The translations under genes were made by a program, and so were the position numbers. Below, one piece after another: positions 27,857 through 44,458 of a stretch of 64,000 bases of DNA (positions are counted from its first letter, which is position 1; each line of letters starts with the position of its first letter). Below the pieces are notes generated by a model, which saw only the letters and a list, made by a program, of their open reading frames with translations, was not told the origin of the DNA and made no database searches. The stretch is from Candidatus Thorarchaeota archaeon (GTDB taxonomy: Archaea > Asgardarchaeota > Thorarchaeia > Thorarchaeales > Thorarchaeaceae): NCBI GenBank assembly GCA_016840385.1, contig JAEOSL010000003.1, forward strand, positions 58,402-122,401, in the 5' to 3' direction.

Positions 27857-27953
27857 GCTCAGGTATCCAAGCCTGGTATGGAGCTGGATTGCTATAGGCA
27901 GCTATACGCAGTCCTGCAAACATCCAGTGTGCTTTGCACTCGAGAGTTCAAAT
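27857..27953 (+). pseudogene. tRNA-Ser(GCU) 5' portion, broken after the T-loop
   Basis: Acceptor strand GCTCAGG, TA, D-stem TCC/GGA around AAGCCTGGTAT, anticodon stem CTGGA/TCCAG with loop TTGCTA+A (anticodon GCT), a 27-nt intron at 37/38 (27895-27921), class II variable arm GTGC TTT GCAC, then T-stem GAGAG and T-loop TTCAAAT. The 3' strand (CTCTC plus CCTGAGC-G-CCA) is missing here; it is found 16 kb downstream at 43858-43873 and, less well kept, at 44431 and 41169. Either the gene was split by integration or the halves are joined in trans; integration is simpler. Confidence 0.8.
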
Positions 27954-29402
27954 CTCATATTTTTGCAGAATTTGCTTGTATACCTGCTCGGGTTTATCTT
28001 CAATATCCCCGACACCAGGAGAATGTTGTTGAAGATAACATAGATTGATTGCATATATTATTTCAATCAAGTTATGTGCAGTAACATCCTTTTCATCCAA
28101 AATATCGAAAACAGTGCCTTTAAATTTCTCAAGATTGTTCTCGATTTTTGTGGATTCGATGTGTTTTATTATGATTTGAGTTACTAAATTGCGAAAATTT
28201 TCTTCGCACCAAGGATAAGGAGAATTCTGCACTGAAGTTTCATATGATGGTCTGAGATTTGCTTTCAAAATTTCCACACCAGCATTTGAACCAATACGTG
28301 CATCTAGATAATCAAACATCATTTTCAGTCGTAGTAATGATGGTGGATGAGAACCATGTGAAGAATTCTGAAGATTGGTTTCACTGCATTCGTAATTCTC
28401 AACGTCCCGCTCTAATTCATCAAAACCTTCAGTGTTTAGTGATACTTCTTCGAGTAAACCTTCTTTCCTCTTCTCTATTTGATTAAGTAAATCAGAGAGA
28501 ACTGATACGATTGCAGCAGTATTTTTTTTCATTTCATTTGTTCTTTCAAATGCTAACAGTGAATCTAAATCAAGAATTGCAGCAGTTCCAAAGAATTCGG
28601 TCATAACGGCATCTGAAAAAAATTCTTTAAACCAGTTCAGTATCCAATAGCGATTAGCAGAATAGCCTACTTTATCCATTACAAGTGGTTGAATATCTTT
28701 CTGGATTGCTTCGTTCAGATAAGAATATAGAATATGTCCTACTTCATGACCTAGCGGAAGCCAGCTGAGAATATTCTGATATTGTGAAAGAGGTATTTGT
28801 ACGATATATTGATTCAATTTCTTTTCGGTACCAACAAGCTCGATTACTGAAAATATATCGCCAAGAACGAATATAGCCTGTGGATCAATATTCAGTCGTT
28901 CTAACATTTTCGTTACTAGAAGAGCTGGGATTTTGATTGCTTTTTTCAGTTCAACATCTTCTATTTGTCTCAAATACATGTGTAGAACAAGAGGGATTTT
29001 TTCTGAAAGAATATCAATATGGTTTTCCAATTTCATTGCGAGGGGAAATATATCCAAAATGATTGAAGATATTTCAGTTATCCAGTTCCTAGCTTCTTGG
29101 ATATCATCAACTGTTGAATCTGCTTGTTCGATACGTAAAAGAATTGCAGGACCTACTAGTGCTAACATAGGAAACTCATGAATTTTAGTCTGAACAATTT
29201 CAAGAGATTTTTCAGTTTCTGTAACCGTGTTTTGGAGAGCATGGAACGTATTTGAAAGAGTATCATTCTGACTATTTATCCGCTGAACCTCAGCTTCAGC
29301 AAACATAAGTTTCCTTCTCATACTGTTCAATCGACGCCCTATAGTAGTTAGAGGATCATCTTTTTCCCAAAGCGTACGTTCTGTCATTGCTGGAACATCC
29401 AT
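27948..29402 (-). CDS. Gluzincin-type metallopeptidase with N-terminal coiled coil
   Basis: 484 aa. Residues about 25-75 are a coiled coil. The zinc motif HEVGH (His219, Glu220, His223) is followed by FKEFFSD (Glu260, Asp264) and a late SHPPSLLRLKMM, the spacing and motifs of M48/M78-like peptidases (HExxH...ExxxD...HPP). No membrane helices or signal peptide are evident, so it is probably cytosolic. The stop codon lies inside the T-loop of the broken tRNA-Ser, so the coding end coincides with the island edge. Role in the element unknown. Confidence 0.7.
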   Translation of the reverse strand: MDVPAMTERTLWEKDDPLTTIGRRLNSMRRKLMFAEAEVQRINSQNDTLSNTFHALQNTVTETEKSLEIVQTKIHEFPMLALVGPAILLRIEQADSTVDDIQEARNWITEISSIILDIFPLAMKLENHIDILSEKIPLVLHMYLRQIEDVELKKAIKIPALLVTKMLERLNIDPQAIFVLGDIFSVIELVGTEKKLNQYIVQIPLSQYQNILSWLPLGHEVGHILYSYLNEAIQKDIQPLVMDKVGYSANRYWILNWFKEFFSDAVMTEFFGTAAILDLDSLLAFERTNEMKKNTAAIVSVLSDLLNQIEKRKEGLLEEVSLNTEGFDELERDVENYECSETNLQNSSHGSHPPSLLRLKMMFDYLDARIGSNAGVEILKANLRPSYETSVQNSPYPWCEENFRNLVTQIIIKHIESTKIENNLEKFKGTVFDILDEKDVTAHNLIEIIYAINLCYLQQHSPGVGDIEDKPEQVYKQILQKYEI

Positions 29403-29500
29403 CTGTTAAAAGCTAATTATTGATTGATATTCATACACACTGGAATGAAGTATCAACATACAATTACATTGTTCGAGTGATTTTGAGCTATAGTGCTAAT

Positions 29501-31957
29501 TTACACCCACCACTCATCAAAGGGAAGTCCTTCGTGATATAATTCTTTGCGTGCTTTCATAAGTTTGCGTGGATTATTCTGTATCCATTCTTTCACAGCA
29601 TTTCGTTTTTGTACATCATTGGGAGGGCATGTTATTCCCCATTTCATCGCTTCATGAGAACCAGTTGTAGCAGTACTCCAGTATACAGATACTCTTCCAG
29701 TTTTTGGTGAATATCTAATTTGTTCGAAATTAGAATTAGTTTGAATCCCTAGATTTTCAGTCATTTTACGCTCATCATTCATAAGGTTGCTTTCGTAATT
29801 GTAGATTATATCCAGTAATTCCTTTGCAGTTGTTGAAACATCTCCGTTTTCTGAAGTTGAAAGTTCTTGTAATGCTCCACGATGAATATATTTTCTTGAT
29901 GTTGCTCTATGTGTTTTTCCTTCCTGTTCGAGAAGTGAAATATGCTCAGGATTTATTTCGGATTTGATTCCATATTTCTCCGTATTCTCCTTCCCAGCAG
30001 CTATTACGACGGTTCGAGACCATTTGAATCCAGTCTTCTCGTTAAAGTTGCCATCTTCAGGGATCAGCTCTTGAAGGTATACAATTTGATTTTGAACTGA
30101 CATTCTTTCAACATCAAGAGGAAGTTTCTCATTGCTTATTGATTTATCACCTGGGCGAAAGCCTTGGTGCAGCAAAACCTTCCCTAATGGAGTAGGAAAA
30201 CTTGTTTCGATTGCATTGTTATCTTTTCTATAGTATCGTTTTAGTTCGATGTCACCCCAAGCACTTAGATTTCTCTCAACTTGATTGAATCGCTCCACAT
30301 TTCCTTCACAGTAATCTACGTATCCTTTTGGACCTAATGAACCATCACTCACGATAATTGCGGTTAACCGAGTAATTTCTCGTTCCAAATCGGTTCCTTC
30401 TGGGAATTTTGGTGATCTAATCCCACCAACACCACTCTTTCCTGCAATTTTGGTGACACATCCCTCAAGGTCAGAGAGCCTTGTGTCTGTAGAATCGAGA
30501 TACATTCGGATGACTTTTCCCTCAAGTCGAGAAACCTTTCCCCCAATTGGTATTGTTCTTGAATGTTCACCATCATCTCCCACAGTTAATTGTCGAGTTA
30601 CTTCATTCAACTGTTTGAGTGCTTCATGATAATTCCCTTTAATTCCAAGATGTTTTTGTAATTCTCCAGCAATATGACCGATCTCACGGTTATCTTTGAA
30701 GTAATAGAACTGGTCTTCATAGGCACCAACCAATTCATCTTTCCTAATCTTTGGAGTCCATGTGTAAATCTTCTCGTTAACTAATGCTACTCGTATTCGG
30801 GAATTCTCAAGGCCAAGCCTCTTCGATACTGCTTCTTCTATCTCTTTGTGATGATCTTGCAGGACTTTCTGCATTTCAGATATCTTCTCAGGGATCAGTT
30901 CCCCTTGAATATCAGCATAACGAATCCTCACATCTTCACCCAAGTTTGGCTGAAGCAACTTTTCTGCTGTCTTCATGATATCCTCTTTTACTATAGATTC
31001 TCTTTCTCTCAGATGTGATGTAGCTTCTCGAACAACTTGTTCATTCATTTTATGAATACCTGTTCGCCCATCATCAACTTCTTTTCTTTCTTGTAGCTCG
31101 CTTTGTCTGAATTCTCTGATCTTTTCCTCGCTAATCTGAGGTCTACTCTCACTCCACTCCTTGATGATACGTTCTTCTTCTCTCTCACGTAATCTTTGTA
31201 TTTGAGTTGGTTCAATATCATTTCTCCAGTAACCAATGTGTGTGTGACTTACATTGTGTTCTTCAGCAAGTTCCTCTCTTCTGACCTCATACTGATCCCT
31301 TACCTCAAAATAGACCTTACAATGTCTATATTGTTCATCAAATCTCTTACGTTCTTTTTCTTCAGAATAATCTTCAAGGTACTTGTCCACATCATGCATT
31401 GATTCAATTCTAACCTCTGGTGGACCATCATGGACTGTTTCATACAACCGCCTTGTTTCTCGTTTCTCAATCTCATAATCGGTCAGGTCGTCATACTTCG
31501 ACCCTATTTCTGTCCGCAACTCTGGTTCAGTATCGTTAACTGGGTCCTCAACTACCTCTTTGGGCTTAATTTTACCCTCATTATTTTCCCCGGTCGATGT
31601 TCCCATGCCCATCGATTCTGACAACTCTGATTCATTATCGTGAATTGACCCTCCTATCTCTTCGAGTGCTTCCTTGATCTTACTCTCAGTGGTTTCCTTC
31701 CTTGATTCCATCTCTCGAAGTTCACCAATAGCTTCTTCCAGACCTTGGGATATGTTCTCCTCCCTACTTTCCCGAGCACGTACTTCCCTGATAGCATCGC
31801 GGACCAAGCGCTCTGCATCCCCCATGGACTCCTGACGTTCCTTGGCATCTGCAACGATTTCTTCTGCGCTTTTCACCTCGTCTACTTCTTCGCTCTCGCG
31901 GATTTCATCTACCTCACGCCTGTGCCTACGACGTCGCTCAGAAGTACCCTCCACCAT
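29501..31957 (-). CDS. Coiled-coil/HTH protein with LAGLIDADG-like endonuclease region
   Basis: About 818 aa. The first 300 residues are highly charged and helical, with a helix-turn-helix-like LAEEHNVSHTHIGYW near 245-260. In the C-terminal half ITRLTAIIVSDGSLG (near 570) and IVYLQELIPEDGNF (near 675) look like the two helices and acidic residues of a LAGLIDADG homing endonuclease. ATG at 31957 follows GAGGGGG; ATG at 31981 overlaps the upstream ATPase gene. Its place next to a VirB4/HerA ATPase suggests a role in mobilisation or integration. The nuclease call is tentative. Confidence 0.5.
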   Translation of the reverse strand: MVEGTSERRRRHRREVDEIRESEEVDEVKSAEEIVADAKERQESMGDAERLVRDAIREVRARESREENISQGLEEAIGELREMESRKETTESKIKEALEEIGGSIHDNESELSESMGMGTSTGENNEGKIKPKEVVEDPVNDTEPELRTEIGSKYDDLTDYEIEKRETRRLYETVHDGPPEVRIESMHDVDKYLEDYSEEKERKRFDEQYRHCKVYFEVRDQYEVRREELAEEHNVSHTHIGYWRNDIEPTQIQRLREREEERIIKEWSESRPQISEEKIREFRQSELQERKEVDDGRTGIHKMNEQVVREATSHLRERESIVKEDIMKTAEKLLQPNLGEDVRIRYADIQGELIPEKISEMQKVLQDHHKEIEEAVSKRLGLENSRIRVALVNEKIYTWTPKIRKDELVGAYEDQFYYFKDNREIGHIAGELQKHLGIKGNYHEALKQLNEVTRQLTVGDDGEHSRTIPIGGKVSRLEGKVIRMYLDSTDTRLSDLEGCVTKIAGKSGVGGIRSPKFPEGTDLEREITRLTAIIVSDGSLGPKGYVDYCEGNVERFNQVERNLSAWGDIELKRYYRKDNNAIETSFPTPLGKVLLHQGFRPGDKSISNEKLPLDVERMSVQNQIVYLQELIPEDGNFNEKTGFKWSRTVVIAAGKENTEKYGIKSEINPEHISLLEQEGKTHRATSRKYIHRGALQELSTSENGDVSTTAKELLDIIYNYESNLMNDERKMTENLGIQTNSNFEQIRYSPKTGRVSVYWSTATTGSHEAMKWGITCPPNDVQKRNAVKEWIQNNPRKLMKARKELYHEGLPFDEWWV

Positions 31958-31967
31958 GAATTCCCCC

Positions 31968-34715
31968 TCAGATACTCTCATTCCTGATGGCTACGAGGAT
32001 ATCTGAGAGGACCGTGGTTTCCTTTGGTTCCAGAAGAACACCTGCAGCATGTAGAAGAAGTCGCTCTGTAAAGGGAATGAGGTCTCCCTCTGAGGAACAG
32101 AACTTATTCGCTACCACAGTCAACATCTTAGCCACAGGAAGAGAGTTCCCCTGATTAGCGGACCTAATTCGATTAAGATACTCCTCAGCGAACATGGGTG
32201 AACTGACTATTTCCGAGATATCGGTTTCTGGACCTTTGGAAATGTACACTGCCTGTGGGTGCGTGGGAACTCCTTGACCTCTGGGTGGTACTGACTGACG
32301 AACTCCTTTGAGTAAATCCTTCAGTTCATCTGATAGAGGGTGGCTCTCCCTAAGTTCGGGATGTGCTTCGAATACTTCCGCCATAGTGTCCCTGACTAGA
32401 GGGTCATTCCATTCTCGACTTGGTAGTGGAATATTTACAAGTTCAGCAAGAGGAAGAACCTGAAGATTTGCTGGCACATTCCTAGTTTGTATCCTCATGA
32501 CAGCTTCTCCAATTCCCATACCTCCAATGTGCTTGATCTGGGCATCAGTGCAAAGAGCTTGCCTCCCAACTAGCAGACGTTCCTCAAGGTCAGTCAGATT
32601 GTGAATGATGACATTTCCAGGGAGTTTTACTGCTTCTGGAACCATACTCCCAGGGAGCTGGTCGATCAGGAGTAGACTGAGACCATTTCCCCTCTGGGTA
32701 CGAAGCATCTCTACGATGTTGTCGATTGCCTTTTGCTTGGAGGTTGGCTCTGCATATCCCGAAGGACCTGTAGCGCGCTTGAGCAAGTGATGGGCTTCTT
32801 CCAATACTAGAAGATAACTGACCTGCTTCTTTGGATTGGCAATGAGATATTCACTGATACCAGCAGTAAGGGCTCCAGTAAGGAGAGCTCGGTCCTCAGG
32901 TGACAGGTCTCTAGTTTCAATGATGGTGGGATGGGCAAGTAATTCTGGAATTGAGAGCCCCTTCGGAGTATTGAGCATGTCTACCAGTATATCGTTTCTG
33001 AACATGCTGCGAAGACGAGCATCAAGAGCCCCGTAAAAATCCCTACTCATTTCCTCTCCATAGGTAATATGGCTCGTGGCTACCTGCTGAAAGGCTTGAT
33101 AGAGATCTGCAAGAACTATGGGGCGACCTCGGACATTTCCCATGCGTCCCCAACCGCAGTTCTCATACATGGTGTTGAAGATATCATCAAAGTGCATAGA
33201 GATGACACCATCATTGGGGAGCGCTGCAGTGTGAACATCAGTCAATCTATCGATGTATTTGCCTACAGGAACTCCTGGAGGTACATCCCACATATTGTAG
33301 CGTAGGGGTGCAATGTCTGGGTTTCCCGCAGTGAAAATACGAAATTCAGGAAATAGATCCTTGAGAAGGCGCCAGTCACCAACATTTCCTGGAGTGATAA
33401 TGATGGTGATGATCTGATTTCGATAAGTCTGAGCTACTAGACTTACCGAGGTCGTGGTCTTTCCCGAGCCAGTATTCCCATAGATTCCAACATGTGAAGC
33501 CAACATCTCTGGAACAAGACCCTGAGGTTGTGTCTTCTGAGGTTCACCGTTCCTGAGAGTGTAGCCTAGGAAGATGAGCCTTTCTAAAGGATGAACCCAG
33601 AGACCCTTTCCTTTCTTCTTTTTCTCAGATTTGTATGTTGAACTTGTTCCCTGCTTCTGCTCCTGTTTCTCTCGAACATGTTTCTGCATAGGAGTTTCCT
33701 TAGGATTCTGTTGTGGCTCCTGTATCTCAGTGATATCTACACTACCTGTTGCGAACTCTTCCCGTCTTGATACTTTCAATCCAATATCACATTGTGGGAG
33801 TGTAAAGTAGGTCGTAGCCTCTTCAGGTGTGAGAATAGTATGGTTTCCCACAGGTCTACCAGCAAGAGCATTTTCAAATTCCTTCTTACCCTTCTTGGTC
33901 TTGACCTTCATGTCGTTCTCTTTGTCTGCAGGAGTTATCCCGCTCATGAGCATAGATATCACACTTTTTGCTTGGGATTCTGCATACTTCTTATCCTGAT
34001 GCCAGTGGGTGGTAATCACTGATACCTTTCCAAGATACTGACTACTCATCCGTTGGACCTGTCTCTTCAGACGTTCCGCCTCACGTTCTGCTCTAGCGTT
34101 AACCTTGGTAGTTGACTGTTGTGAATCAGAAGAGAAGAGCTTTGGAGATGAAACCATTGTCTGAGACCGAGATATGGCGTGTTCGTATTCTCTCTCTAGG
34201 CTCTTGACCTTTCTTTTGTTGTTCTTTGATGGGGTAATGAATATCTGAAAGAGGATATCGTCAATGCCCTGAATCATTTCACCTACTGCATCCATAGGGT
34301 CAATCTGAGGGAGCCCTAGGTTATTGTCCTCGGTGATCAGAGGTTCTCCAGTGAGACAAGCTGAAGCTCCTTCCATGTTGATACTGACAGTATGTCCAAT
34401 GAATTGTGAGTGGATGTTTGACTTGAACTTTGGTAGATGTGCATTGATTGTAGCAGAAAGAGAATGGATTCTGTTCTTGAGGAGTTCTTGATCATGACCC
34501 CAAGTCAGGAAGAAGACCTTAGTTCTTCCTTTGATGCGCTCTAGTCGAAGACCGACTGGGGTTTCAATCACCATCATTCCTCGCAAGATGTTTCTAAAGG
34601 CTTGACGGTAGACTGGATTCCTTTTTCCAGATTCAGAGAGCGATAGATAATCCTCTGGAATCTCCACTAACTCAACTGCTCCAATGAGCATGGGTCCTTT
34701 CCATGATTCAAACAT
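31968..34715 (-). CDS. VirB4/HerA-superfamily conjugation-type ATPase
   Basis: 915 aa. Walker A GNTGSGKTT at 413-421, Walker B LLVLEEAHHL at 635-644, and the HerA/VirB4-typical QRGNGLSLLLIDQLPGS and LPGNVIIHNL segments that follow. The N-terminal 400 residues resemble the partner-binding half of VirB4/TraC-type proteins and include a charged linker. Such ATPases power DNA transfer or pilus assembly. ATG follows AGGTGG. It leads a unit with the LAGLIDADG-like gene, which it overlaps. Could also be a HerA-like DNA pump of a plasmid or virus. Confidence 0.8.
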   Translation of the reverse strand: MFESWKGPMLIGAVELVEIPEDYLSLSESGKRNPVYRQAFRNILRGMMVIETPVGLRLERIKGRTKVFFLTWGHDQELLKNRIHSLSATINAHLPKFKSNIHSQFIGHTVSINMEGASACLTGEPLITEDNNLGLPQIDPMDAVGEMIQGIDDILFQIFITPSKNNKRKVKSLEREYEHAISRSQTMVSSPKLFSSDSQQSTTKVNARAEREAERLKRQVQRMSSQYLGKVSVITTHWHQDKKYAESQAKSVISMLMSGITPADKENDMKVKTKKGKKEFENALAGRPVGNHTILTPEEATTYFTLPQCDIGLKVSRREEFATGSVDITEIQEPQQNPKETPMQKHVREKQEQKQGTSSTYKSEKKKKGKGLWVHPLERLIFLGYTLRNGEPQKTQPQGLVPEMLASHVGIYGNTGSGKTTTSVSLVAQTYRNQIITIIITPGNVGDWRLLKDLFPEFRIFTAGNPDIAPLRYNMWDVPPGVPVGKYIDRLTDVHTAALPNDGVISMHFDDIFNTMYENCGWGRMGNVRGRPIVLADLYQAFQQVATSHITYGEEMSRDFYGALDARLRSMFRNDILVDMLNTPKGLSIPELLAHPTIIETRDLSPEDRALLTGALTAGISEYLIANPKKQVSYLLVLEEAHHLLKRATGPSGYAEPTSKQKAIDNIVEMLRTQRGNGLSLLLIDQLPGSMVPEAVKLPGNVIIHNLTDLEERLLVGRQALCTDAQIKHIGGMGIGEAVMRIQTRNVPANLQVLPLAELVNIPLPSREWNDPLVRDTMAEVFEAHPELRESHPLSDELKDLLKGVRQSVPPRGQGVPTHPQAVYISKGPETDISEIVSSPMFAEEYLNRIRSANQGNSLPVAKMLTVVANKFCSSEGDLIPFTERLLLHAAGVLLEPKETTVLSDILVAIRNESI

Positions 34716-35002
34716 AACTAGCCACCTATTACATAGTAAGAATTGATGACTAGAGTAATCATATGCTTTTACTCAACGACAGAAGTCCAACATGAGGTTA
34801 TTACATAGAAGAAGGGACTCTATGGACTACCTAAGTAGCTAAATTTCATCTAACAGGTATTTAGATTGAAGTGAGTGGTCTGGTGGTGGACTTCTGGGGT
34901 AGGTGAAGGCCTTGAATTGCAGGAATGAGGCATGTCGGTGAAATACAGTTAAGAGTGAAATGTGATGGCATTATTTTCTTGTAATACATAGGTGAGGATC
35001 TC
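34716..35002. other. Intergenic control region (287 bp)
   Basis: Divergent space between the ATPase (minus) and the 250-aa gene (plus). It is AT-rich and must hold both promoters, but no clear TATA box or repeat stands out. GGTGAGG at its right end is the ribosome site of the downstream TTG start. A minus-strand frame across 34861-35076 looks like a shadow of that gene. Confidence 0.35.
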
Positions 35003-35755
35003 TTGTACGAGGAAATAACCCCATATGAATTAACTCCAGATTTTCTGGCGAAAAATTTGAATTCGATGTCCATCACAATTCAAGAAACTTGCAAACGTTT
35101 TGAAGACTACGGATTTGAATTCAAATGGACTCCGACAATTTGGTTAAACATGATTGCTACGATTATTGATACACATCCTGATGCTGAAGAACTAGTGCAC
35201 AACAGTCTGTTTATCCATCGACTCTATGATACAATGTCTTCAATTACCTGGGCAATGGTATCCGTGTACTCAGCAGGTTATGAATCAGCATTGCGGGATC
35301 TTCGATTCTGGTCAGAGGATATTACTCAAGTCTACTATCTTGATCAAGAGCTTACAGATGCAACCAAATCAGAGAAAATATCACATATCGCCAAGTTAGA
35401 GAAGAGTAAACCTAGACTCTCAGGTACAACATTGATGAAGAAATGCGTAATGGATGAAAGGCTTAAACATGAATTCATCGAGATTTTCAGGTCTCTCAGT
35501 AAATATGTCCATCCTACGGAAAAAATGGAAAGAAATCCGCAGAATGCATCAGAATACGATTGGGGAATAAGTGAGAAACGATTTCGTCTTTGTATCGATT
35601 TTCATAGGAAGGTCTACGATTGCATAACAGCATTGATTCTCTCAACTTACTCCATTGCATTTATGAATCATGAAGATGGGTTGATGCCCTTAATACTACA
35701 ATTGATAAACCAAGCAGAATTTCCAGTCTCAAAATCTCTTCTTGGACTAGACTAG
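35003..35755 (+). CDS. Hypothetical helical protein of the island
   Basis: 250 aa, predicted mostly helical, starting at TTG behind GGTGAGG (five-base spacing). A notable stretch is FRSLSKYVHPTEKMERNP, where a conserved-looking KYVHP occurs in the last third; similar H-P motifs occur in helical bundles of phage-defence or HEPN-like proteins, but the match is weak. No membrane segment or signal peptide. It is the only rightward gene in the left half of the island, next to a small membrane protein. Function not recognised. Confidence 0.55.
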   Translation: MYEEITPYELTPDFLAKNLNSMSITIQETCKRFEDYGFEFKWTPTIWLNMIATIIDTHPDAEELVHNSLFIHRLYDTMSSITWAMVSVYSAGYESALRDLRFWSEDITQVYYLDQELTDATKSEKISHIAKLEKSKPRLSGTTLMKKCVMDERLKHEFIEIFRSLSKYVHPTEKMERNPQNASEYDWGISEKRFRLCIDFHRKVYDCITALILSTYSIAFMNHEDGLMPLILQLINQAEFPVSKSLLGLD

Positions 35756-35770
35756 GAACTCAATTTTAAA

Positions 35771-36058
35771 CTATGTTACCACAAAACTCGGTGGAAACAA
35801 TACAAAATATTCTATGACAATTGACAGCATGACTCCGCTGAAAACGAGACCCTTGCCCTTACTCTGATTGGTTTCAGTGAACCAGAGAATAGCTCCAATG
35901 AGCACTATTATCACACCAGAAATTTGACCGATGAAGATGAGAAAATCCCAAATCTCAATGAAGTAACTCACAATCAGATTTGCAAAATTCTGAAGAGGAC
36001 TCTGCATGAGTAATGAAGGCATAGTGATTGCTCCTGAGAATTTGGTATCAGGAACCAT
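35771..36058 (-). CDS. Small two-helix membrane protein (pilin/CedA1-like candidate)
   Basis: 95 aa with two or three hydrophobic segments (NLIVSYFIEIWDFLIFIGQISGVIIVLIGAILWF, then GLVFSGVMLSIVIEYFVLF) separated by a short basic loop (NQSKGKGL). Small helical-hairpin proteins like this occur beside VirB4/HerA ATPases as VirB2/TrbC-type pilins or archaeal CedA1-type DNA-transfer subunits. The context supports that reading but the sequence alone does not prove it. Confidence 0.5.
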   Translation of the reverse strand: MVPDTKFSGAITMPSLLMQSPLQNFANLIVSYFIEIWDFLIFIGQISGVIIVLIGAILWFTETNQSKGKGLVFSGVMLSIVIEYFVLFPPSFVVT

Positions 36059-36175
36059 TATGCAGAAATCAAAGGGTCAACAATGAATCCATAAGCATTC
36101 TCTGATACCGCCTCTCGGTGGTGGATGGTACCTTTTGAACTCGTCAGTTCCTCTCCAACAAATATAGTATGCATC

Positions 36176-37024
36176 CTACATTTCAAACTCCGGCAACTCT
36201 TTGAATCTCAGAAGGAGCCTGATTGAAGCTAAAAACGTATAGAAGAAAAATTCATACCATTCTTCAGTTGAATACTCTGATAGTTGGGACTTGTCGTGAT
36301 GTCGGATAGAGAATTTATTCAAGATTTGTCGTAGCATTGAATCATCTTTCTTTGGCATTATTATATTCAAGTCTCTCAGATATTCGAGGACGTCTCCGAG
36401 AGTTCGAATTGCATCTTTCTTTTCATCTAATGATGATCCATATCTTAGAAAAAGTGAAATCGCATATTGAATCTTTGAATCGATATTATCAGAATCATCT
36501 GTTTTGGGAATATTCTCTACTAGCTCTGTATAACCTTTCAAAATGCTCTCCCGAATCTCGCCGTCCTTTGAAAGTTCATACATTGTTTTTTTTCCATTGA
36601 TTATCAAGACATAATGATTCAGCAATTCGTTTACTCGTTTACGATAGTCTTCTTGAGCAGCTTTCTTTTGAAACCTGCTTGGATACCGATGACCTGCTTC
36701 TGTTTCAGGTATAGATACGAAATCGTAGAGGAACTCGATTATTGTGAAAAAAGTGATTTCATCAAATTTCATCAGATGATTATTGAGAGGCCATATATTT
36801 TCCATATGTAGATTCTTCAGTATGTAGGTTTGTGGATTAGGGTTCCAGATTCCCTTAGCCCACGTATAACCACCTGCTGCTTCAGCTAGATAGTGATTTT
36901 CATTTATATGACTAAAGACATCGTTCATGAAGACCTTCTTCACTTGTGGCAAACTAAGGGACTGACTATGCCCCTGTCGATGAGCATAGTATTTCCGTTT
37001 GGATTCTTTTTTTTCTTCACCCAT
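36176..37024 (-). CDS. Hypothetical protein, possible defence-type helical domain
   Basis: About 282 aa starting at ATG 37024 (MGEEKKESKRKYYAH). The C-terminal third (EKKDAIRTLGDVLEYLR...LNKFSIRHHDKSQ...EWYEFFFYTFLASIRLLLR) resembles the all-helical C-terminal domains of bacterial proteins with a conserved N-x-IRHH motif, some in defence islands and possibly HEPN-like. No ribonuclease site can be asserted. It lies just downstream (on the minus strand) of the intact tRNA-Ser. Confidence 0.5.
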   Translation of the reverse strand: MGEEKKESKRKYYAHRQGHSQSLSLPQVKKVFMNDVFSHINENHYLAEAAGGYTWAKGIWNPNPQTYILKNLHMENIWPLNNHLMKFDEITFFTIIEFLYDFVSIPETEAGHRYPSRFQKKAAQEDYRKRVNELLNHYVLIINGKKTMYELSKDGEIRESILKGYTELVENIPKTDDSDNIDSKIQYAISLFLRYGSSLDEKKDAIRTLGDVLEYLRDLNIIMPKKDDSMLRQILNKFSIRHHDKSQLSEYSTEEWYEFFFYTFLASIRLLLRFKELPEFEM

Positions 37025-37085
37025 CTTACACACAGATTCACTATTCCATTGGGGAAATAAAAGGGTTTCATAGAAAAGAGAGAAG

Positions 37086-37228
37086 TGGCGCTGCGGGAGA
37101 GAATTTCAGACCTCATGGAAATCATGAAACCATTTGAACTCTCGAGTGCAAAGCACACTGGATGTTTGCAGGATTACGTATAGTTTCCTATAGCAATCCA
37201 GCTCCATACCAGGCTTGGATACCGCAGC
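37086..37228 (-). tRNA. tRNA-Ser (anticodon GCU) with anticodon-loop intron and T-arm insertion
   Basis: Acceptor GCTGCGG pairs fully with CCGCAGC; discriminator G and CCA are encoded (37086-37088). The anticodon stem CTGGA/TCCAG carries a 27-nt intron (37164-37190) after TTGCTA. The variable arm is GTGC TTT GCAC. T-stem GAGAG and loop TTCAAAT are separated from CTCTC by 30 nt (37102-37131) with an internal TCATG/CATGA hairpin, as expected for a second, noncanonical intron. The spliced length would be 86 nt. It shares promoter, intron and body with the broken copy at 27857, but the acceptor stem has covaried. It could supply the function lost there. Confidence 0.85.
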
Positions 37229-37254
37229 ACTGATTTGTTCGGAAATTAGATTTC

Positions 37255-37270
37255 TCTCATAAACATTGTG
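37255..37270 (-). promoter_or_regulatory. Promoter of the intact tRNA-Ser
   Basis: On the minus strand CACAATGTTTATGAGAG lies about 30-35 bases before the tRNA 5' end. It matches the promoters of the broken tRNA-Ser and SRP RNA, and a copy occurs upstream of the cyclase gene (43801-43822). Confidence 0.5.
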
Positions 37271-37327
37271 ACAGGACTTAGTGCAACAGTAATAACAATG
37301 GAAAGACAATATCTTTCAAATAATCGA

Positions 37328-40312
37328 TTACTCAACGTGCCATCCCTTGTCTGGATCGAAAATTAATTGGTTGTCCCCCTTCTTTTTCACTAGGATTCTA
37401 GATTTTTCGAACGCCTTTTTGCTATCCTCAATTTCACCAAGCTCTTCATATGCTCTTGCCAAATTATGCCAAGCACTATAATTTTCAGGTTCAAGTTCCA
37501 AAGCTTTGATTGTTGCTTCTTTTGCCTTGGTGTGTTTTTTCAATCGTAAACTGGTGGCTCCAAGATTTAACCAGTGAGAAAATGACTCTGGTTTTTCTTG
37601 GACCAGTTGATCTAAACATATCTCAGCAATCTCGTTTAATCCCTCTTTTAGTAGCATAATCACAAATGCTTCAAGAATTTCTATGTAATCATTAGCTTTC
37701 CTAATCTGGTATGGAATATCTGATACATATTCCACAACTAGGGATTTGTTTCCTTTTGAGAGAATGAATGAAAGATATTGAAAGTATAATTTTGATGATT
37801 CACACATAATTTTTACTGCATGTATAAAATTCTGTTTTGCTAATTCCATATTTGCAATTTCATAGTATACAATTGATAGATTCAGGTAGATTTCTGCTTT
37901 TTCAAAACCAAGGTTGATAGCTTTCTCAAAAGGTTCTATCGATTCCTTGAATTTTCCCTGTCTATGAAACAGCTGACCATTAAGTACATGAAAATTCGCA
38001 TTGTTTTCAACATCACCCGTTTTATTTGCTTCTAATAGATGAAAACTCGATTCTTCGATTTTTCCTTGATTCAGATAGTATGAGCTTAGATTTAGGTGAG
38101 GTAGAGCAAAACTAGGATCTAGTAATAGAGCACGTTTATACAACTGGAATGCTTCAGCCTCGTCACCCCTGTTTTGCATAATTATTCCTTTGCTGTTCAG
38201 TAACGAAGCGTTCACAAGGTTTCTGGATGCTGCTTCACTAATTACAAGTTCTGCATCGGGATATCTCTGTTTAGCAATTAGGACATAGCTTAATCCAGCA
38301 TAGAAACTATCCTCATCTGGTTCAGTTTGTATGGCCTTTCTCATGTTACTGATTGCTTCATCAATGATGTCTTCAGATTCTGCAGTTTCATATTGCATCA
38401 TTCCTAATTGAAAAAGAAATCGTGCGGTAGTCGGCTCAAGTTCTAAGGCGTTTTTCATGAGTGCAATTGCTTCCTTTCCATCTCCAAGGTCCCAAAGAAT
38501 ACCTGATAAATTAGATATTGTAGATGGATTTCTGTTTTGTGAGAGTGATATTTCAAGTTCAATACGTGCTTTTTCAAGTTCTCCTTTCAATGACAGGACT
38601 AAGCCCAAATTTGATCGACCCTGATAGAATTGATAATCTATATCTAATGCTTGCCGAATTGCTTTCTCAGCATCGTCAAGTTTATTCTTTTTCAGAAAAT
38701 ATGCACTTAGATTATGTAGACAATAGACAATATTAGAATCAGGAGGGTTTATTGAATCTATCAAAATCTCTATTAATTTTTCAATTTCGTTTTCAGCTGA
38801 GTAAATAGAAAGTACAAAGAGAAAAGTAGAACTAAAGAGATTTGGAACACTTTGATGTATTGTTTGAAGATATTTAAGATAAACAAGCACAATTTCTGTT
38901 TCCAGACATGTTTTTTCATCTAAATTCAAAATTCTTCTAAGTGAAGAAGAAGTTTCAGTATAGATAAGTTGAGCAATTGTTTGGTGAGTGAAGATTAGAA
39001 ATTGTTTCTGGGAAGGACCTACGAAGATTTCACGGATTAGCTGAGATTCAACAAGATCATCTACTATAATCTGGATATTTTGCCCAATCTTTTCCTCGAT
39101 AAAATCCTTCAGTACAACAGAGCCCATTCTTGAAAAGAAAGAGAGAAATCCTAGACACAAAGCACCTAATTCTCTATCTTGGACTTTATCGAGATGACGG
39201 TTGAGTGTGAATTGAGGTAGATTTGGTGGTATCATTTGAGTGGGTGTTTTGCTATCATCTTTGATACTATTTTCAATCCATCTCAATACTTCGCAAAACT
39301 CCGCAATATTTCCAGATTCATTGAATATATCATCAAAATCAATATCTTCCTCAATTTCTCCAAGCTCTAAGAATCTTTGAAAAAGTGTGTGGGCAATTTC
39401 TTCTCCAGCACTAATCAGAATTCCCGGTTTTCTTCCCAGAAGTCCTTCGTATTTGGGAGAATAGGTGCTGGTTAGTTCAAAACCAACTTGTGTTCCTGTT
39501 TCAGTCTGTATCTCAGCAACGCGTTTACTTCCAATCGTTTTAGGAAAATCTGTAGGTGGCTTTGATTTGACCGTATGAGCAATAGTTTCTATATACAAAA
39601 CTCGTATCTTTGTTCTAAATCTTAGAGAACTGAACTGTAAGAGTTGTTCTATTGCATCGAGGAGTAAGATTGCTTCTTGTCTTTTTGTATGAACATTATC
39701 TATAATCAATAGGTTTTTTGATCTCAATGTTTGAAACCACAGTTTAATCTCAGTAATCAAGTTTGTATTTAGTGCTTGAGAAGCATCTGCATAGTACACT
39801 TTCCATCCAAGTGAAGATAGATCATTCGCAAACCGCAAAGAGGTTGTTGTCTTACCGCAACCCGATGGACCAGCAATTACTGCTTGACTGAGTTTCTTCT
39901 TTGTTTCCGTATTATTCGTAACTTTCAGAGGTTTTTTGAATTTTACTTCCAATTTCTTCACGAGAAGAGAACAGATGTTTTTTGGCAAAACTACATAGTT
40001 CTTTTCAAAATCAACTCTGAAAGGAAATGGTTCTCTTAGTAATTTCGGACTTTCATTTTCCATCTCAGGGAACATATATTCAAAGGATTTTATCCCTGTA
40101 GGAATTTGACTTACCTCAAAATAATCCACTATCCATAGGACAATGGTCCCACCAAACAAAATTATTCCAACAATACCGTCTATTGTTTGCAATGCATCTG
40201 TTAGATTTTGACCAAAGTGAATCCGAAAGATTTCAAGGAGATAAATCAATATCAAGCAAAATATAACTAGAGAAAGAAAAACTGCTACTCTTTTTGAAAT
40301 TGTGATTCTCAA
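37328..40312 (-). CDS. Membrane-anchored STAND-type P-loop ATPase with TPR array
   Basis: 994 aa. Two N-terminal membrane helices (residues about 8-30 and 43-63) precede a P-loop NTPase: Walker A AGPSGCGKTT (148-157) and Walker B LLIIDN (201-206). A helical and winged-helix-like middle region follows, then at least ten tetratricopeptide units from about 530 (for example LDDAEKAIRQALDID, KAKEATIKALELEPENYSAWHNLARAYEELG). NTPase plus repeats is the architecture of STAND sensors, including Avs-type antiphage proteins, where the repeats recognise a ligand. Here the membrane segment could be the effector or an anchor. A defence role is inferred from fold and island context. Confidence 0.75.
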   Translation of the reverse strand: MRITISKRVAVFLSLVIFCLILIYLLEIFRIHFGQNLTDALQTIDGIVGIILFGGTIVLWIVDYFEVSQIPTGIKSFEYMFPEMENESPKLLREPFPFRVDFEKNYVVLPKNICSLLVKKLEVKFKKPLKVTNNTETKKKLSQAVIAGPSGCGKTTTSLRFANDLSSLGWKVYYADASQALNTNLITEIKLWFQTLRSKNLLIIDNVHTKRQEAILLLDAIEQLLQFSSLRFRTKIRVLYIETIAHTVKSKPPTDFPKTIGSKRVAEIQTETGTQVGFELTSTYSPKYEGLLGRKPGILISAGEEIAHTLFQRFLELGEIEEDIDFDDIFNESGNIAEFCEVLRWIENSIKDDSKTPTQMIPPNLPQFTLNRHLDKVQDRELGALCLGFLSFFSRMGSVVLKDFIEEKIGQNIQIIVDDLVESQLIREIFVGPSQKQFLIFTHQTIAQLIYTETSSSLRRILNLDEKTCLETEIVLVYLKYLQTIHQSVPNLFSSTFLFVLSIYSAENEIEKLIEILIDSINPPDSNIVYCLHNLSAYFLKKNKLDDAEKAIRQALDIDYQFYQGRSNLGLVLSLKGELEKARIELEISLSQNRNPSTISNLSGILWDLGDGKEAIALMKNALELEPTTARFLFQLGMMQYETAESEDIIDEAISNMRKAIQTEPDEDSFYAGLSYVLIAKQRYPDAELVISEAASRNLVNASLLNSKGIIMQNRGDEAEAFQLYKRALLLDPSFALPHLNLSSYYLNQGKIEESSFHLLEANKTGDVENNANFHVLNGQLFHRQGKFKESIEPFEKAINLGFEKAEIYLNLSIVYYEIANMELAKQNFIHAVKIMCESSKLYFQYLSFILSKGNKSLVVEYVSDIPYQIRKANDYIEILEAFVIMLLKEGLNEIAEICLDQLVQEKPESFSHWLNLGATSLRLKKHTKAKEATIKALELEPENYSAWHNLARAYEELGEIEDSKKAFEKSRILVKKKGDNQLIFDPDKGWHVE

Positions 40313-40380
40313 TGAAATCCCACCGGTCCTAATTGTCTTCTCTCAATAGAAGATAATAAAGTTCCCTGAGTGCATTATAA

Positions 40381-40734
40381 TCATTCATCACTAAATGAAA
40401 GAGAGGGGTAAAGGATATTGTATGGGGGATCATAGTACAGAATCAGCAGCCCTTCTGCGTTCTTATATTCATCTTCTGGTAGAGTAAACCATGCAAAAGA
40501 GCCAAAGGGAATTCGTTTATCCGTATCATAAAGTCCTCACTATCCCACTGACTTAATCTTCTTCTGAGATTCGCAGCCCTACCGATATAGCGAAGAGATC
40601 CACCCCCAATAAAGTGCGTAAACACCTACTTCATTGGGTGCATTCAAGTAATTCTGTTTCTGGTCTTTATCCCACTCAAATACCGTGAAATCATTATTTT
40701 CTAAGAACCGTTTCAACCATCCAGGAGATACCAT
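40381..40734 (-). pseudogene. GIY-YIG nuclease-like gene broken by two frameshifts
   Basis: From ATG 40734 the frame reads into GVYALY and then stops at 40579. A one-base shift restores IGGGSLRYIGRAANLRRRLSQW (the GIY and YIG strands plus catalytic-type Arg). A second shift restores IPFGSFAWFTLPEDEYKNAEGLLILYYDPPYN, the family's Glu-containing end. Joined, the three pieces give a complete small GIY-YIG domain. Either a decayed gene or two sequencing errors. Confidence 0.65.
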
Positions 40735-40856
40735 TATTATGCCCTCCTTCCATATGGAATATGATTTCTTAGCATATGACTAATTTTCTCTGTGAAACCG
40801 AGTAAATTCAGTAAAGTGCCGACAATTGTCAGAGTCTATAGATTCTCATTCCTTAA

Positions 40857-41147
40857 ATGCACTCAAAACAAGATATCGATATGAGAAGAACAAGGACCAT
40901 CAAAAGAGGTAAACACTTTTTCGCAGCAGGGTGGGGTAAGTATGGTCCTTTTGCTGTTTATACAAGACGACTTAGAAAAAGGACCTATGCTAAGACGTCG
41001 GTGGGTCTAAAGGGCGTGTTAGCAGGGCTCAAGTACTCAGGTAGGCGAGTTTCAGCACAGGGTATGGTTAATCTGATATCAGGAAAGCCCTCTGTTTCGA
41101 TTTCCAGAAAATCTCGAAGAAGGCGAAGACGTCGTAAAAGATATTGA
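40857..41147 (+). CDS. Arginine-rich basic protein of unknown function
   Basis: 96 aa with about one third Arg/Lys. A compact middle (RGKHFFAAGWGKYGPFAVYTRRL) is followed by a C-terminal run SRKSRRRRRRRKRY. It could bind nucleic acid, as in small ribosomal or packaging proteins, but no family is recognised. ATG at 40857 or 40881 (MRRTRTIKRGK) could start it; neither has a clear ribosome site. It lies alone on the plus strand in the island. Confidence 0.5.
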   Translation: MHSKQDIDMRRTRTIKRGKHFFAAGWGKYGPFAVYTRRLRKRTYAKTSVGLKGVLAGLKYSGRRVSAQGMVNLISGKPSVSISRKSRRRRRRRKRY

Positions 41148-41168
41148 AAGATAGAAACTTCAATTATT

Positions 41169-41198
41169 CACCTCCCTGATCGCCACTTTTCCTTAGTA
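41169..41198 (+). repeat. Degenerate tRNA-Ser 3'-end repeat (att-like), copy 1
   Basis: ACCTCCCTGATCGCCA followed by a CTTTTCCTTAGT tail. Against copy 2 it has two T-stem changes and one acceptor change. It lies between the Arg-rich gene and the nuclease-TPR gene and marks the left side of that cassette. Confidence 0.55.
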
Positions 41199-41371: not shown

Positions 41372-42976
41372 TCAGTTCTTAGAAAATCCTTTCAGTATCT
41401 CTGAACTACCTGTTGACAATTCTGCAGCTTTTTGCAATGCAGTCTGAGATTCTTGATGTTTCCCTTGTTTGTAAAGTAGTTTTCCTAGCAACTGCCATGC
41501 TTCAGCAGAATCCTTACTGAGAGATAGTGCCGTTTTTAGAGAATGTTCAGCATCTTCAAGTTCATCTAGTGAAACTTGTATTTTGGCAAGGGATAACCAA
41601 AGATCATAATTTTCATTTTCTATTTCTAGTGCTTTTCGAAAGACTTCTTCAGCTTGTTCAAATTGCTTATTATCAATAAAAATCAATCCTAGGCCTTGCA
41701 ACAGAAACAGGTGATTAGGATCCATATCTAAGCCTTTGAAAAGTATCTCACTTGCTTCTTCAAGTTTCCCCATTTCATATAGTATGGAACCTAAAGATGC
41801 AATGTAATTCAAATTTTCTGGTTCTATTTCAAGAGCTTTGGATATAGCTTCTTTAGCTTCGTTTAGATTACGCGTTAGATAGCTAATCGCACCTATTCCA
41901 AACCATGCAGTAGAATATTTTGAATCAATTTCAATAGCCTTTTGAAATGCGGTTTTTGCTTCTGGTAGTTTGTCTAATTCTTGAAGTGTCATTCCCAAGC
42001 CACACCAAGCAGTTGGATTCGTTCTATCATATTCGATTGCTTGTCTGTATGTTTCCTCAGATTTTGCTAGATGTCCTTCGGTATAATAGGTTGCAGCCAA
42101 TTCAACAAGATTCTCAGGCTCGATTCCTTCGTAAACACGCAAAGGCTCGTCAGAACCAGAAGATACGAGCAATTTGATGTTCCAATCAGTTTCTGCTTTC
42201 TTTACAAAATCAATCGGAATGCCTTTGAATTCGTATCCAATTATAATACCACGAATTTTCTCTCCAAGACTATAACTCAACGTAGCATGGGCCCATTCAA
42301 TGTACTTCCGTATTCGATAGATACTATCTTTATCAGCAATGATTTTCGCTTCTATTATTATTGGACCTTCAGAATCTTTTCCGAGGTAGTCAATATAGCC
42401 AATTCGACCAGCCTTAAACTGTAATGAATTTTCGTCATCAGTAATTGGTTCTATTTCTTGGAACTCATTAGGAAGGAATTTTCGTAATTTTTCAATTGTT
42501 AATAAACCAAAAAGATGACTTGTAATCTTCGCAAAATCCTTGGAATCCTCTATAATTTCAAGTGAGGCAGAAATAGGAGTTGTGATTTTAGATTCATCTT
42601 GAATTCTATATTCAATTTCGAGTTTGAATGTCCATGTTCCTGATGTGTCAATACCATAATATAATGGAAGAACTGAATCCCAGACGTAACTTTTCATTTC
42701 GTTTGGGCGAAGAAACACTCTGACTCTTTCGTTTGATATGAAGAATTTATTTGGAATAAAATCTCCTTTAGATTTATCATAGACTCCTTTGAAATCAGAT
42801 TCAAACCACAATGGACAATAATAACCGAGAATCCATATAGGTGTATCAGATGTATTTTCCACGCTCCAATAGAGCTGAATCGAATCTTCGAGTTCGATTG
42901 GGGATTTCGATTTCCCGTCACTCCTAATTTGAAATTGTACATTCAAATCGTGCTTTTCTTTCTCTATTCTTGACAT
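41372..42976 (-). CDS. PD-(D/E)XK nuclease-TPR fusion protein
   Basis: 534 aa in three parts. Residues 1-145 are beta-rich and Ig-like (LYWSVENTSDTPIWILG). Residues about 150-275 have a PD-(D/E)XK nuclease pattern, GYIDYLG...IIIEAK (Asp196, Glu209, Lys211), with RIRKYIEWA after it as in NucS/DUF91-type domains. From about 295 there are six or seven TPRs. The start overlaps the cyclase gene end by 13 bp, so the two are co-translated. A cyclic-nucleotide-triggered effector role is inference; no nucleotide-binding domain is recognised, though the beta domain or TPRs could serve. Confidence 0.7.
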   Translation of the reverse strand: MSRIEKEKHDLNVQFQIRSDGKSKSPIELEDSIQLYWSVENTSDTPIWILGYYCPLWFESDFKGVYDKSKGDFIPNKFFISNERVRVFLRPNEMKSYVWDSVLPLYYGIDTSGTWTFKLEIEYRIQDESKITTPISASLEIIEDSKDFAKITSHLFGLLTIEKLRKFLPNEFQEIEPITDDENSLQFKAGRIGYIDYLGKDSEGPIIIEAKIIADKDSIYRIRKYIEWAHATLSYSLGEKIRGIIIGYEFKGIPIDFVKKAETDWNIKLLVSSGSDEPLRVYEGIEPENLVELAATYYTEGHLAKSEETYRQAIEYDRTNPTAWCGLGMTLQELDKLPEAKTAFQKAIEIDSKYSTAWFGIGAISYLTRNLNEAKEAISKALEIEPENLNYIASLGSILYEMGKLEEASEILFKGLDMDPNHLFLLQGLGLIFIDNKQFEQAEEVFRKALEIENENYDLWLSLAKIQVSLDELEDAEHSLKTALSLSKDSAEAWQLLGKLLYKQGKHQESQTALQKAAELSTGSSEILKGFSKN

Positions 42977-43734
42977 GGATTATCAATATCCTCCTTTTCC
43001 ATAATTTTATGAGCTAGTCGTAGTGAGCTACGATATTTGCCATCTTCATATCGGTGTTTACCAATTTCAAACTCCATGAAATCCCTAATCCTCACCTCAT
43101 CTGGTTTAGCCCAAGTGATTGCATATGTATTTACTAGTCCCTTCTTTGTTGGTACGTCCCATCTCACTATTGTCCTTGGTGTTTTACTATCAAGCCAAGC
43201 CAATAACTTACAATACCGTTCCTTGTATTCTGGCGAAATCCAGTCTGGAGGAATAAATGCAATCCCAACCCATTCTTGTGAACCCTCAAAATTAACAGCT
43301 TCCTCCACTGCTTTTCCAGCAAAATAGTTCATGTTAGAAGATCCTAAGTCACGATTAGCCGCAACGAACCCCATAGATATTCCTCCTCTTATAGGAAGAT
43401 TGTCTTCGAAACAGCTTCCTTGAAGTTCCTGTAGAATTCTACTTAGCATGTACAATTGATTCTTGTCAATTAGAGTTTCACTGGAAAGAGGTTCAAGAAC
43501 TATAAACACACTATCTGAGAATCCTGTAATTTTGAATTCTTCCCCTAATCCTTTGGTTACCTCATCAACAATGCTATAAAACTTGGTAATAAAATTCCAT
43601 GCACGTTCAATTTGATCATCCAATATCGGCCAACCATAGAATTCTTGATTCTTTAGAATGGAAGAATACCCCAGTAAATCAAGAAAGACTATGACTCGTT
43701 CTTTTCGTTCCCCACCGACTAGCTCGCTCACCAA
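42964..43734 (-). CDS. Class III nucleotidyl cyclase-like protein
   Basis: 256 aa. FLDLLGYSSIL (Asp19) and GFSDSVFIVL (Asp74) place two metal-binding aspartates as in class III cyclases. PIRGGISMGF and the late GKAVEEAVNFE match the substrate-facing strand and helix seen in stand-alone cyclase homologues, including pyrimidine cyclases of Pycsar defence. Nucleotide choice cannot be read. It is the first gene of a two-gene unit with the nuclease-TPR protein, and the pair exactly fills the space between two tRNA 3'-end repeats. A tRNA-type promoter lies upstream at 43801-43822. Confidence 0.7.
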   Translation of the reverse strand: MVSELVGGERKERVIVFLDLLGYSSILKNQEFYGWPILDDQIERAWNFITKFYSIVDEVTKGLGEEFKITGFSDSVFIVLEPLSSETLIDKNQLYMLSRILQELQGSCFEDNLPIRGGISMGFVAANRDLGSSNMNYFAGKAVEEAVNFEGSQEWVGIAFIPPDWISPEYKERYCKLLAWLDSKTPRTIVRWDVPTKKGLVNTYAITWAKPDEVRIRDFMEFEIGKHRYEDGKYRSSLRLAHKIMEKEDIDNPCQE

Positions 43735-43857: not shown

Positions 43858-43887
43858 CTCTCCCTGAGCGCCATTTCTTTTCCTAAT
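43858..43887 (+). repeat. tRNA-Ser 3'-end repeat (att-like), copy 2
   Basis: CTCTCCCTGAGCGCCA is the exact 3' half (T-stem CTCTC, acceptor CCTGAGC, discriminator G, CCA) required by the tRNA 5' portion at 27857. It is followed by TTTCTTTTCCTAAT, a T-rich terminator-like tail that also supplies the stop codon of the convergent membrane-protein gene. Confidence 0.75.
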
Positions 43888-44341
43888 CAACAACTTCACT
43901 GATTTGTGACCATAGAAGATAAGATACAATAAGAAAATGAAATGGTAAAGGAATGACTGAGTCTAGCCAACTGCCCCAGACAAAGAATCCAACAACAATT
44001 GTAACTACAATCTGTAATATCAACAGACAGAGTGTGAGTGTCCATACTGACTTCGTATCTATCAGTCCTACATAACACCGATGCAGAGAATAGCTAACAT
44101 AGAGCCCACACCCAAACCAGAAAAGACCTAGGACTGAGAGAATGAATGGGGATGAGGGTGAAAAGAGGATAATGATTCTACCGAGATCCAACCAATTCCC
44201 AAAATCGTGCAGATATGTCCATAGCGGAAATAACCAGTATTGATTCGTAGTCATTATTGGAGTGCCTGTTGTCACAAAGCCGTACGGTAAAATTATGCTT
44301 GATGCAATTGATAGATACAGTAGACGTAAATGCTTCTGCAC
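43883..44341 (-). CDS. Polytopic membrane protein, single gene of a cassette
   Basis: 152 aa with about four hydrophobic helices (LYLSIASSIILPYG, IIILFSPSSPFILSVLGLFWFGCGLYV, LTLCLLILQIVVTIVVGFFVW, FHFLIVSYLLW). No signal or catalytic motif. It lies alone between two tRNA 3'-end repeats and its TAG stop is inside the left one. Function unknown. Confidence 0.6.
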   Translation of the reverse strand: MQKHLRLLYLSIASSIILPYGFVTTGTPIMTTNQYWLFPLWTYLHDFGNWLDLGRIIILFSPSSPFILSVLGLFWFGCGLYVSYSLHRCYVGLIDTKSVWTLTLCLLILQIVVTIVVGFFVWGSWLDSVIPLPFHFLIVSYLLWSQISEVVD

Positions 44342-44430
44342 GTAGAACCCCTTCCTGGTAGCATATTTACATGTGATTGCATATTAGTTTAGTGAGAGGT
44401 ATTACTGAAGATACAAAGTAAAAGAAAAAC

Positions 44431-44458
44431 AGTCTCCCTGAGCGCCATCTTTTCTTAA
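44431..44458 (+). repeat. tRNA-Ser 3'-end repeat (att-like), copy 3
   Basis: GTCTCCCTGAGCGCCA plus TCTTTTCTTAAT. It is identical to copy 2 through acceptor and CCA with one T-stem change. Rightmost copy; it may be the original chromosomal tRNA end. Confidence 0.7.

Follow-up and report, generated by a model that had tools for sequence, protein, structure and literature searches.

We analyzed a stretch of 64,000 nt, called the window throughout, from contig JAEOSL010000003.1 of a Candidatus Thorarchaeota archaeon. Its aIF5B/IF-2-like protein shows up to 91% identity with records of Candidatus Thorarchaeota, which marks the window as Thorarchaeal. It contains an island inserted at the 3′ end of a tRNA-Ser(GCU) gene. 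The native gene is broken, while copies of its 3′ end lie far downstream and bound inserted cassettes. The largest inserted segment, element A (about 27956-41185), carries p826, the gene of a predicted LAGLIDADG endonuclease, and is followed by cassettes B and C.

The broken tRNA-Ser(GCU) gene and its displaced 3′ ends

The tRNA features of the window are as follows.

27857..27955, + strand: orphan 5′ part of the native tRNA-Ser(GCU), broken off in the T arm at TTCAAATCTC (alignment to relatives)
37086..37228, − strand: complete tRNA-Ser(GCU) with two introns, inside the island (alignment, folding)
41154..41185, + strand: displaced tRNA-Ser 3′ end, copy 1, including T-arm letters; right end of element A
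43858..43873, + strand: displaced tRNA-Ser 3′ end, copy 2, exact
44432..44447, + strand: displaced tRNA-Ser 3′ end, copy 3, which has kept the right flank of the native gene (flank alignment to the related locus L004)

The native gene starts with GCTCAGG at 27857 and continues through an anticodon-arm intron, the variable arm and GAGAG-TTCAAAT to the letters CTC, which end at about 27955. Beyond this point the DNA is unrelated to tRNA. An earlier interpretation from the letters alone (the sequence-only reading) had described a tRNA gene left incomplete by a break directly after TTCAAAT. The gene is indeed incomplete and is not rebuilt at the island border, and the break does lie in the T arm, but three letters past the T loop.

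The same reading had noted repeated 3′ halves in one orientation with T-rich tails, and these were recovered. Matches to CTCTCCCTGAGCGCCA were found on the + strand at 43858 (exact), 44432 (one mismatch) and 41170 (three mismatches), each with a T-rich tail. With up to three mismatches allowed, the window contains five matches; shuffled sequences had a mean of 0.31, and none of 100 shuffles reached five. Two of the five are not separators, namely those at 37086 (−) and 58143 (+), and the former is the 3′ end of the complete second tRNA-Ser(GCU) gene. The three + strand copies at 41172, 43858 and 44432 bound the inserted cassettes. Neither tRNA-Ser gene of the window was reported by ARAGORN or Rfam, and both were therefore read by eye and by alignment.

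The locus with and without inserts in related genomes

The locus was compared with its counterparts in relatives, which are labeled by L numbers. The conserved genes that anchor the comparison in the window are the following.

22227..24050, + strand: left anchor, a translation factor of the aIF5B/IF-2 kind (Pfam; 91% to Thorarchaeota records)
24101-24413: archaeal signal recognition particle RNA, after the left anchor gene (Rfam)
44831..45253, − strand: right anchor, a conserved gene of 140 amino acids (aa) (comparison with relatives)
46069-47373: EF1A, past the 140-aa gene

In 20 of the 21 relatives read, the tRNA-Ser gene at this place is complete to its 3′ end; in the remaining case, L011, the contig ends within it. 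Empty sites were found in L006, L008, L009 and L012, where no more than about 25 bases separate tRNA-Ser from the 140-aa gene, behind which lies EF1A. In the window, these two genes lie beyond 44447. The right flank of the window from 44433 aligns to L004 from 16298 (82%), which identifies the copy at 44432 as the native 3′ end. L004 itself contains inserts of 3.9 kb at this place, together with a copy of the 3′ end at 14010 and a decayed copy near 16290. The locus is thus a hotspot of serial insertion at the 3′ end of tRNA-Ser(GCU), at which native 3′ ends have been displaced. Serial integration had been proposed as the simplest explanation before relatives were compared, and the intact relatives and the native flank at 44432 support it well.

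A complete tRNA-Ser(GCU) gene inside the island

Element A contains a complete tRNA-Ser(GCU) gene on the opposite strand. The sequence-only reading had noted neither this gene nor the T-loop introns of relatives at the position of the break, nor the probable mobility protein p826. Its acceptor stem (GCTGCGG/CCGCAGC) differs from the native one and is fully paired. One intron lies in the anticodon arm and a second, of 30 nt, in the T loop (37102-37131); without the introns the RNA folds with all arms. The gene is preceded by promoter-like sequence, as in the relatives. As a query it gave a match in 13 of 29 Thorarchaeal genomes, with one match each (the gene of G022 came as two rows), and a second copy was thus not seen in these 13 genomes. 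AGY codons are in use, as they make up 65 of 4604 codons in six window genes. The essential tRNA is presumably supplied as cargo of the element, and the native 5′ part would then be a relic.

The complete gene also bears on the proposal that trans-splicing joins the 5′ part to one of the 3′ copies and so gives a working split tRNA. The acceptor stem and the T stem pair perfectly between the 5′ part and the 3′ halves, and positions 27841-27953 are identical to L004 at 113 of 113 bases, hence the 5′ part is not decaying. These two observations would suit a split tRNA, but an intact gene of the same tRNA is present in the same island, and complementary leaders were not found at the break. The duplex energies of the break flanks with the flanks of the three copies were −6.5, −9.7 and −14.6, against a median of −10.4 and a 5% point of −15.4 for shuffles, which were made for the middle pair only. 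No helix was clearly beyond the shuffles, whereas natural T-loop introns give a clear hairpin. The functional split tRNA was rejected because of the complete gene and the lack of a convincing helix beside the broken halves, and we regard it as highly improbable.

Gene content of element A and the cassettes

The protein-coding genes of the island are as follows.

27948..29402, − strand: p484, protein without assigned function, with its stop codon in the tRNA letters; between the tRNA and p826
29501..31981, − strand: p826, predicted LAGLIDADG endonuclease that is proposed to mobilize element A
31968..34715, − strand: HerA-like ATPase (Pfam DUF87; HerA by PADLOC and NCBIfam)
35003-35755 (+), 35771-36058 (−) and 36176-37033 (−): small cargo genes, no Pfam family above cut-off
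37328..40312, − strand: STAND-like NTPase with TPRs, cargo (nSTAND_NTPase5, E 1.4e-7, just below cut-off)
40857..41147, + strand: small basic protein, cargo
41372..43734, − strand: cassette B, a TPR protein (41372-42976) and a 256-aa protein (42964-43734)
43883..44341, − strand: cassette C, one membrane-type protein

Among the contents proposed from the letters, the STAND block and the single membrane protein have counterparts in this list; the "cyclase" and "nuclease" of cassette B had no Pfam support. Relatives of p484 were limited to its own cluster in the protein database, and none was found in the 29 genomes. A 285-aa protein had one, partial relative there, and the HerA-like ATPase had matches in 15 of the 29. 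The HerA-like protein also matched 43 plasmid records, in each case partially and with less than 60% identity. Relatives of A1 and of the HerA-like protein were absent from the pattern matches in viral contigs, and there was no exact match for two tRNA-Ser strings. Phage records contained no match to p826.

Two further features were observed outside the island. Four window stretches (45489-45970, 50532-50959, 62189-62579 and 62765-63170; about 400-480 bases, two per strand) match one region of L004 (18850-19344) with 71-82% and represent a dispersed repeat family with small open reading frames (ORFs). A beta-lactamase-family hydrolase (47493-48761) is present as two ORFs, both of which match adjoining stretches of L079.

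The p826 family at the 3′ ends of conserved genes

The predicted structure of p826 has a LAGLIDADG endonuclease fold at residues ~527-808, and its N-terminal half is barely covered by fold matches. Two acidic motif residues are conserved, D546 in 30 of 30 rows and position 643 as D (25) or E (5); from the motif, we take them to be the LAGLIDADG catalytic residues. We conclude that p826 is likely a LAGLIDADG endonuclease and the probable mobility protein of element A. A database search found at least 30 matches for the protein at E 1e-3 or better, counting p826 itself, and all eight that bear an organism name are from Thorarchaeota. A search with the p826 alignment yielded 80 matches in 18 of the 29 genomes, and the 59 that reach profile position 840 or more were examined for the surroundings of their C-terminal end.

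In 32 of these 59 cases, the p826-family gene is convergent with a conserved gene and lies beside, or just overlaps, the 3′ end of that gene. The 32 targets comprise 15 tRNA genes (L097, L098, L099, L101, L102, L103, L107, L109, L112, L113, L119, L123, L128, L139 and L152; those of L097, L098, L099, L113 and L123 were recognized by eye), two 5S rRNA genes (L141, L150) and 15 protein genes. The latter encode LSm (5), SAHH (3), rubredoxin (3), class-V aminotransferase, OTC, uS19 and ScpB (1 each); Pfam was run on 8 of the 15, and the others were judged by likeness. The 3′ end of the ScpB gene is overlapped by 12 bases. The chance of finding 15 of 59 ends beside a tRNA gene is about 6e-27, assuming 46 tRNAs per 3.1 Mb and a reach of 150 bases. 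Two more ends (L154, L155) were partly interpretable. At several of the ends without a recognized target, p826 is followed by a further gene in the same orientation, and in L108 and L110 a tRNA-Asn gene lies about 600 bases past p826.

A quick tree, with Shimodaira-Hasegawa-like approximate likelihood ratio (SH-aLRT) support only, was calculated from 52 rows (51 loci and the window; C-terminal pieces below 110 aa were dropped). The 26 labeled rows represent 14 targets and required 14 target changes, compared with a minimum of 13 and with 17 to 22 in 60 shuffles. On this tree, the p826 clades follow the target genes. Position, target-linked clades and predicted fold together make it most likely that p826-family proteins cut their targets.

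Two additional observations concern the family. Stand-alone C-terminal scraps of p826 occur in L142, L144, L145, L147, L149, L151 and L153, mainly next to genes for SAHH, rubredoxin or LSm, and could be either relics of decayed elements or ends left by insertion. In ten loci (L100, L108, L114, L116, L120, L124, L126, L143, L146 and L148), a protein of 200-310 aa starts right after p826 on the same strand; several of these are alike, which suggests an accessory protein of one family branch.

Displaced target 3′ ends in related loci

A second copy of the target 3′ end was present on the element side in 7 of 24 loci tested. The short matches of L099 and L128, as well as the shortest of those in L129 and L130, were left out of this count. 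For tRNA-Ala, L090 has a displaced copy of 48 nt at a distance of 12 kb, and L096 has a weak match (E 0.15). Displaced copies were also found for tRNA-Phe (two, in L173), tRNA-Val (L159), class-V aminotransferase (L161; 84 nt, 90%), LSm (L162) and OTC (L171). In L173, a T-loop intron is present in the complete tRNA-Phe but absent from the displaced copy at 5904, as if the intron had arrived with the element.

Side observations were made at the tRNA-Ala loci. In the same tRNA-Ala gene next to p826, the D loop of L090 (~6074-6180) carries an intron-like insert, which L096 (13288-13364) lacks. L155 (G016:C140, ~36460-36620) contains a tRNA-Ala 3′ remnant and an inverted C-terminal scrap of p826 about 1 kb from an intact tRNA-Ala, and may represent a second, facing insertion.

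In L172, a complete tRNA-Val adjoining p826 is immediately preceded by a broken tRNA-Val 5′ part; 18 loci were checked within about 1.7 kb, and no other showed this arrangement. L172 is relevant to the possibility that the junction at 27955 is an assembly error that joins two molecules, with the native gene intact. The break does fall in multi-copy sequence. The similar broken-plus-complete pair of L172 is found in another genome, however, and the p484 cluster has members on two contigs (a matter of cluster membership, not of the junction). We consider an assembly error very unlikely.

The 3′ ends of tRNAs are the classic attB sites of tyrosine recombinases, and displaced 3′-end repeats are their usual mark. 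A recombinase that was lost or acted in trans could thus have inserted the cassettes, with p826 as a passenger and the break as a later deletion tolerated via the duplicate gene. The tRNA 3′-end target and the displaced repeats fit this explanation, and p484 extends into the tRNA, which gives the junction of the window the look of a deletion. On the other hand, Pfam revealed no tyrosine recombinase family among the tested genes of the window or among five proteins other than p826 from the L090 element, and no integrase family of the integron type in the window genes tested. Furthermore, p826-family genes abut many different targets with clade-linked specificity, and in L161 the p826 homologue is the only large ORF between the two 3′ ends. 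Insertion by a tyrosine recombinase therefore seems rather unlikely.

T-loop introns

T-loop introns were found in the tRNA-Ser of 7 of 20 relatives (L001, L003, L004, L012, L022, L023 and L030), within three letters of the position at which the window gene is broken. They also occur in 7 of the 15 tRNAs that abut p826 (L097, L098, L099, L112, L113, L123 and L139). When 12 of 15 T-loop introns were folded singly, nearly all formed the T stem and a central hairpin. A model built from the 15 introns, with 150 candidates scored per genome (all where there were fewer), had at least 106 matches in the 29 genomes, 98 of them of intron length (54-60 nt). The excess at p826-abutting tRNAs has binomial probabilities of 3e-5, 1e-4 and 1e-3 at assumed backgrounds of 7, 8.5 and 12%, respectively. 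The association is only suggestive, because the seven intron-bearing p826 tRNAs helped to build the model, these rows are related (four Asn, two Phe), and the tRNA-Ser of L012 and L023 has the intron without an island. Displaced copies with intron letters exist in L159 and, as we read it, in L004 (at 14010), and the intron thus does not fully block insertion.

One tentative idea is that p826 cuts the intronless T arm of the sole tRNA-Ser(GCU) gene of the host and that the element supplies a complete substitute, uncuttable because of its T-loop intron, in the manner of a poison and its antidote, so that the host becomes dependent on it. We regard this as doubtful.

A model for serial insertion

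We hypothesize that serial insertion at the 3′ end was driven by p826-type elements, one of which brought the essential tRNA as cargo, and consider this probable. A p826-family protein would cut a specific conserved gene at its 3′ end and so initiate insertion, and repair would install the element together with the element's own 3′ end. In relatives, the complete target adjoins p826, and in 7 of the 24 loci tested the older 3′ end is displaced to the far end. A well-supported part of the model is that elements enter at the T arm of tRNA-Ser and that every new insertion moves the previous 3′ end further out, which yielded the copies at 41172, 43858 and 44432. In the window, the 3′ half would not have been rebuilt or would have been lost later. 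The cell would be viable because element A carries the complete intron-bearing tRNA-Ser(GCU), which covers the native loss from the other strand. Cassettes B and C, which are without p826, may have been moved in trans or may have lost their p826.

Several results weigh against this model. No target was recognized at 25 of the 59 p826-family ends, and tRNA-Ser was not among the targets of any of the 59. The ORFs of at least 70 aa in the tRNA-Ser cassettes of L004 are too short for p826, and its contig contains no p826 match. In 17 of the 24 loci tested, there was no displaced copy. In the window, which is atypical in this respect and in its missing 3′ half, p484 separates p826 from the tRNA; a candidate for a hidden tRNA 3′ remnant beside p826 (29403-29515) scored 14.5, was equaled by 67% of shuffles and was rejected. 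The 5′ part is undecayed, which points to a recent break, a recent conversion of the stretch or continued use of the 5′ part.

Relation to known systems and significance

The nearest tRNA precedent is found in Caldiarchaeum subterraneum. As described in excerpts of Sugahara 2012 (PMC3293823), it has a 5′ fragment of tRNA-Thr(GGU) and a complete two-intron copy; integration was proposed to have brought the intron, and introns may guard against further invasion. In both cases, a mobile element is associated with a native 5′ fragment and with a complete gene that has gained an intron. In the account excerpted, the complete gene of Caldiarchaeum lies at the border of a 1.8-kb element with a putative recombinase and has the same orientation, whereas the window gene lies inside a 13-kb element on the other strand and has a T-loop intron and a LAGLIDADG candidate.

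The fungal mitochondrial mORF, which encodes a LAGLIDADG or GIY-YIG endonuclease, replaces the 3′ end of a gene and displaces the old end beyond it (PMC3630166, in excerpts). The likeness is one of arrangement, not of compared sequences: an endonuclease gene at the target 3′ end and an older end displaced, as in 7 of the 24 related loci. In contrast to the mORF as excerpted, the window has the displaced ends but not the rebuilt one. The Thorarchaeal elements further differ in their location on an archaeal chromosome, p826 convergent to the target, tRNA and 5S rRNA targets, large cargo and, in some, a HerA-like partner. They may be viewed as an archaeal, cargo-bearing analogue of 3′-end-replacing homing elements, with replacement of a tRNA in the window.

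HeimM2 of Heimdallarchaeum, an 8-kb element situated between 16S rRNA and tRNA-Arg, encodes an LRR protein as well as a homologue of homing endonucleases (PMC8813620, in excerpts). It is likewise an Asgard element with a homing-endonuclease homologue beside a tRNA, and an LRR protein also occurs in L090. In these excerpts it differs as a single case with an endonuclease like rRNA-intron enzymes, and it was compared by description only. Elements of the SSV/pNOB8 type share the tRNA 3′-end target and the direct repeat of the 3′ end, but rely on a tyrosine recombinase, a family without a match in the genes tested here (PMC8371274 and PMC3293823, in excerpts). The review of archaeal tyrosine recombinases (PMC8371274) uses neither of the terms LAGLIDADG and Asgard. 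Papers describing an element like this one, with LAGLIDADG and HerA proteins together, did not come up in our literature search, in which HeimM2 was the nearest.

Taken together, what appeared to be a split tRNA leads to a family of Thorarchaeal elements that carry a predicted endonuclease and adjoin the 3′ ends of genes for tRNAs, 5S rRNA and proteins. An old question becomes directly testable, namely whether the introns and fragments of archaeal tRNAs originate from mobile elements and in turn give protection from such elements, as each target is a defined DNA site that can be compared with and without the intron. If the poison-antidote idea were true, the T-loop introns of archaeal tRNAs would in part be resistance marks left by p826-type elements.
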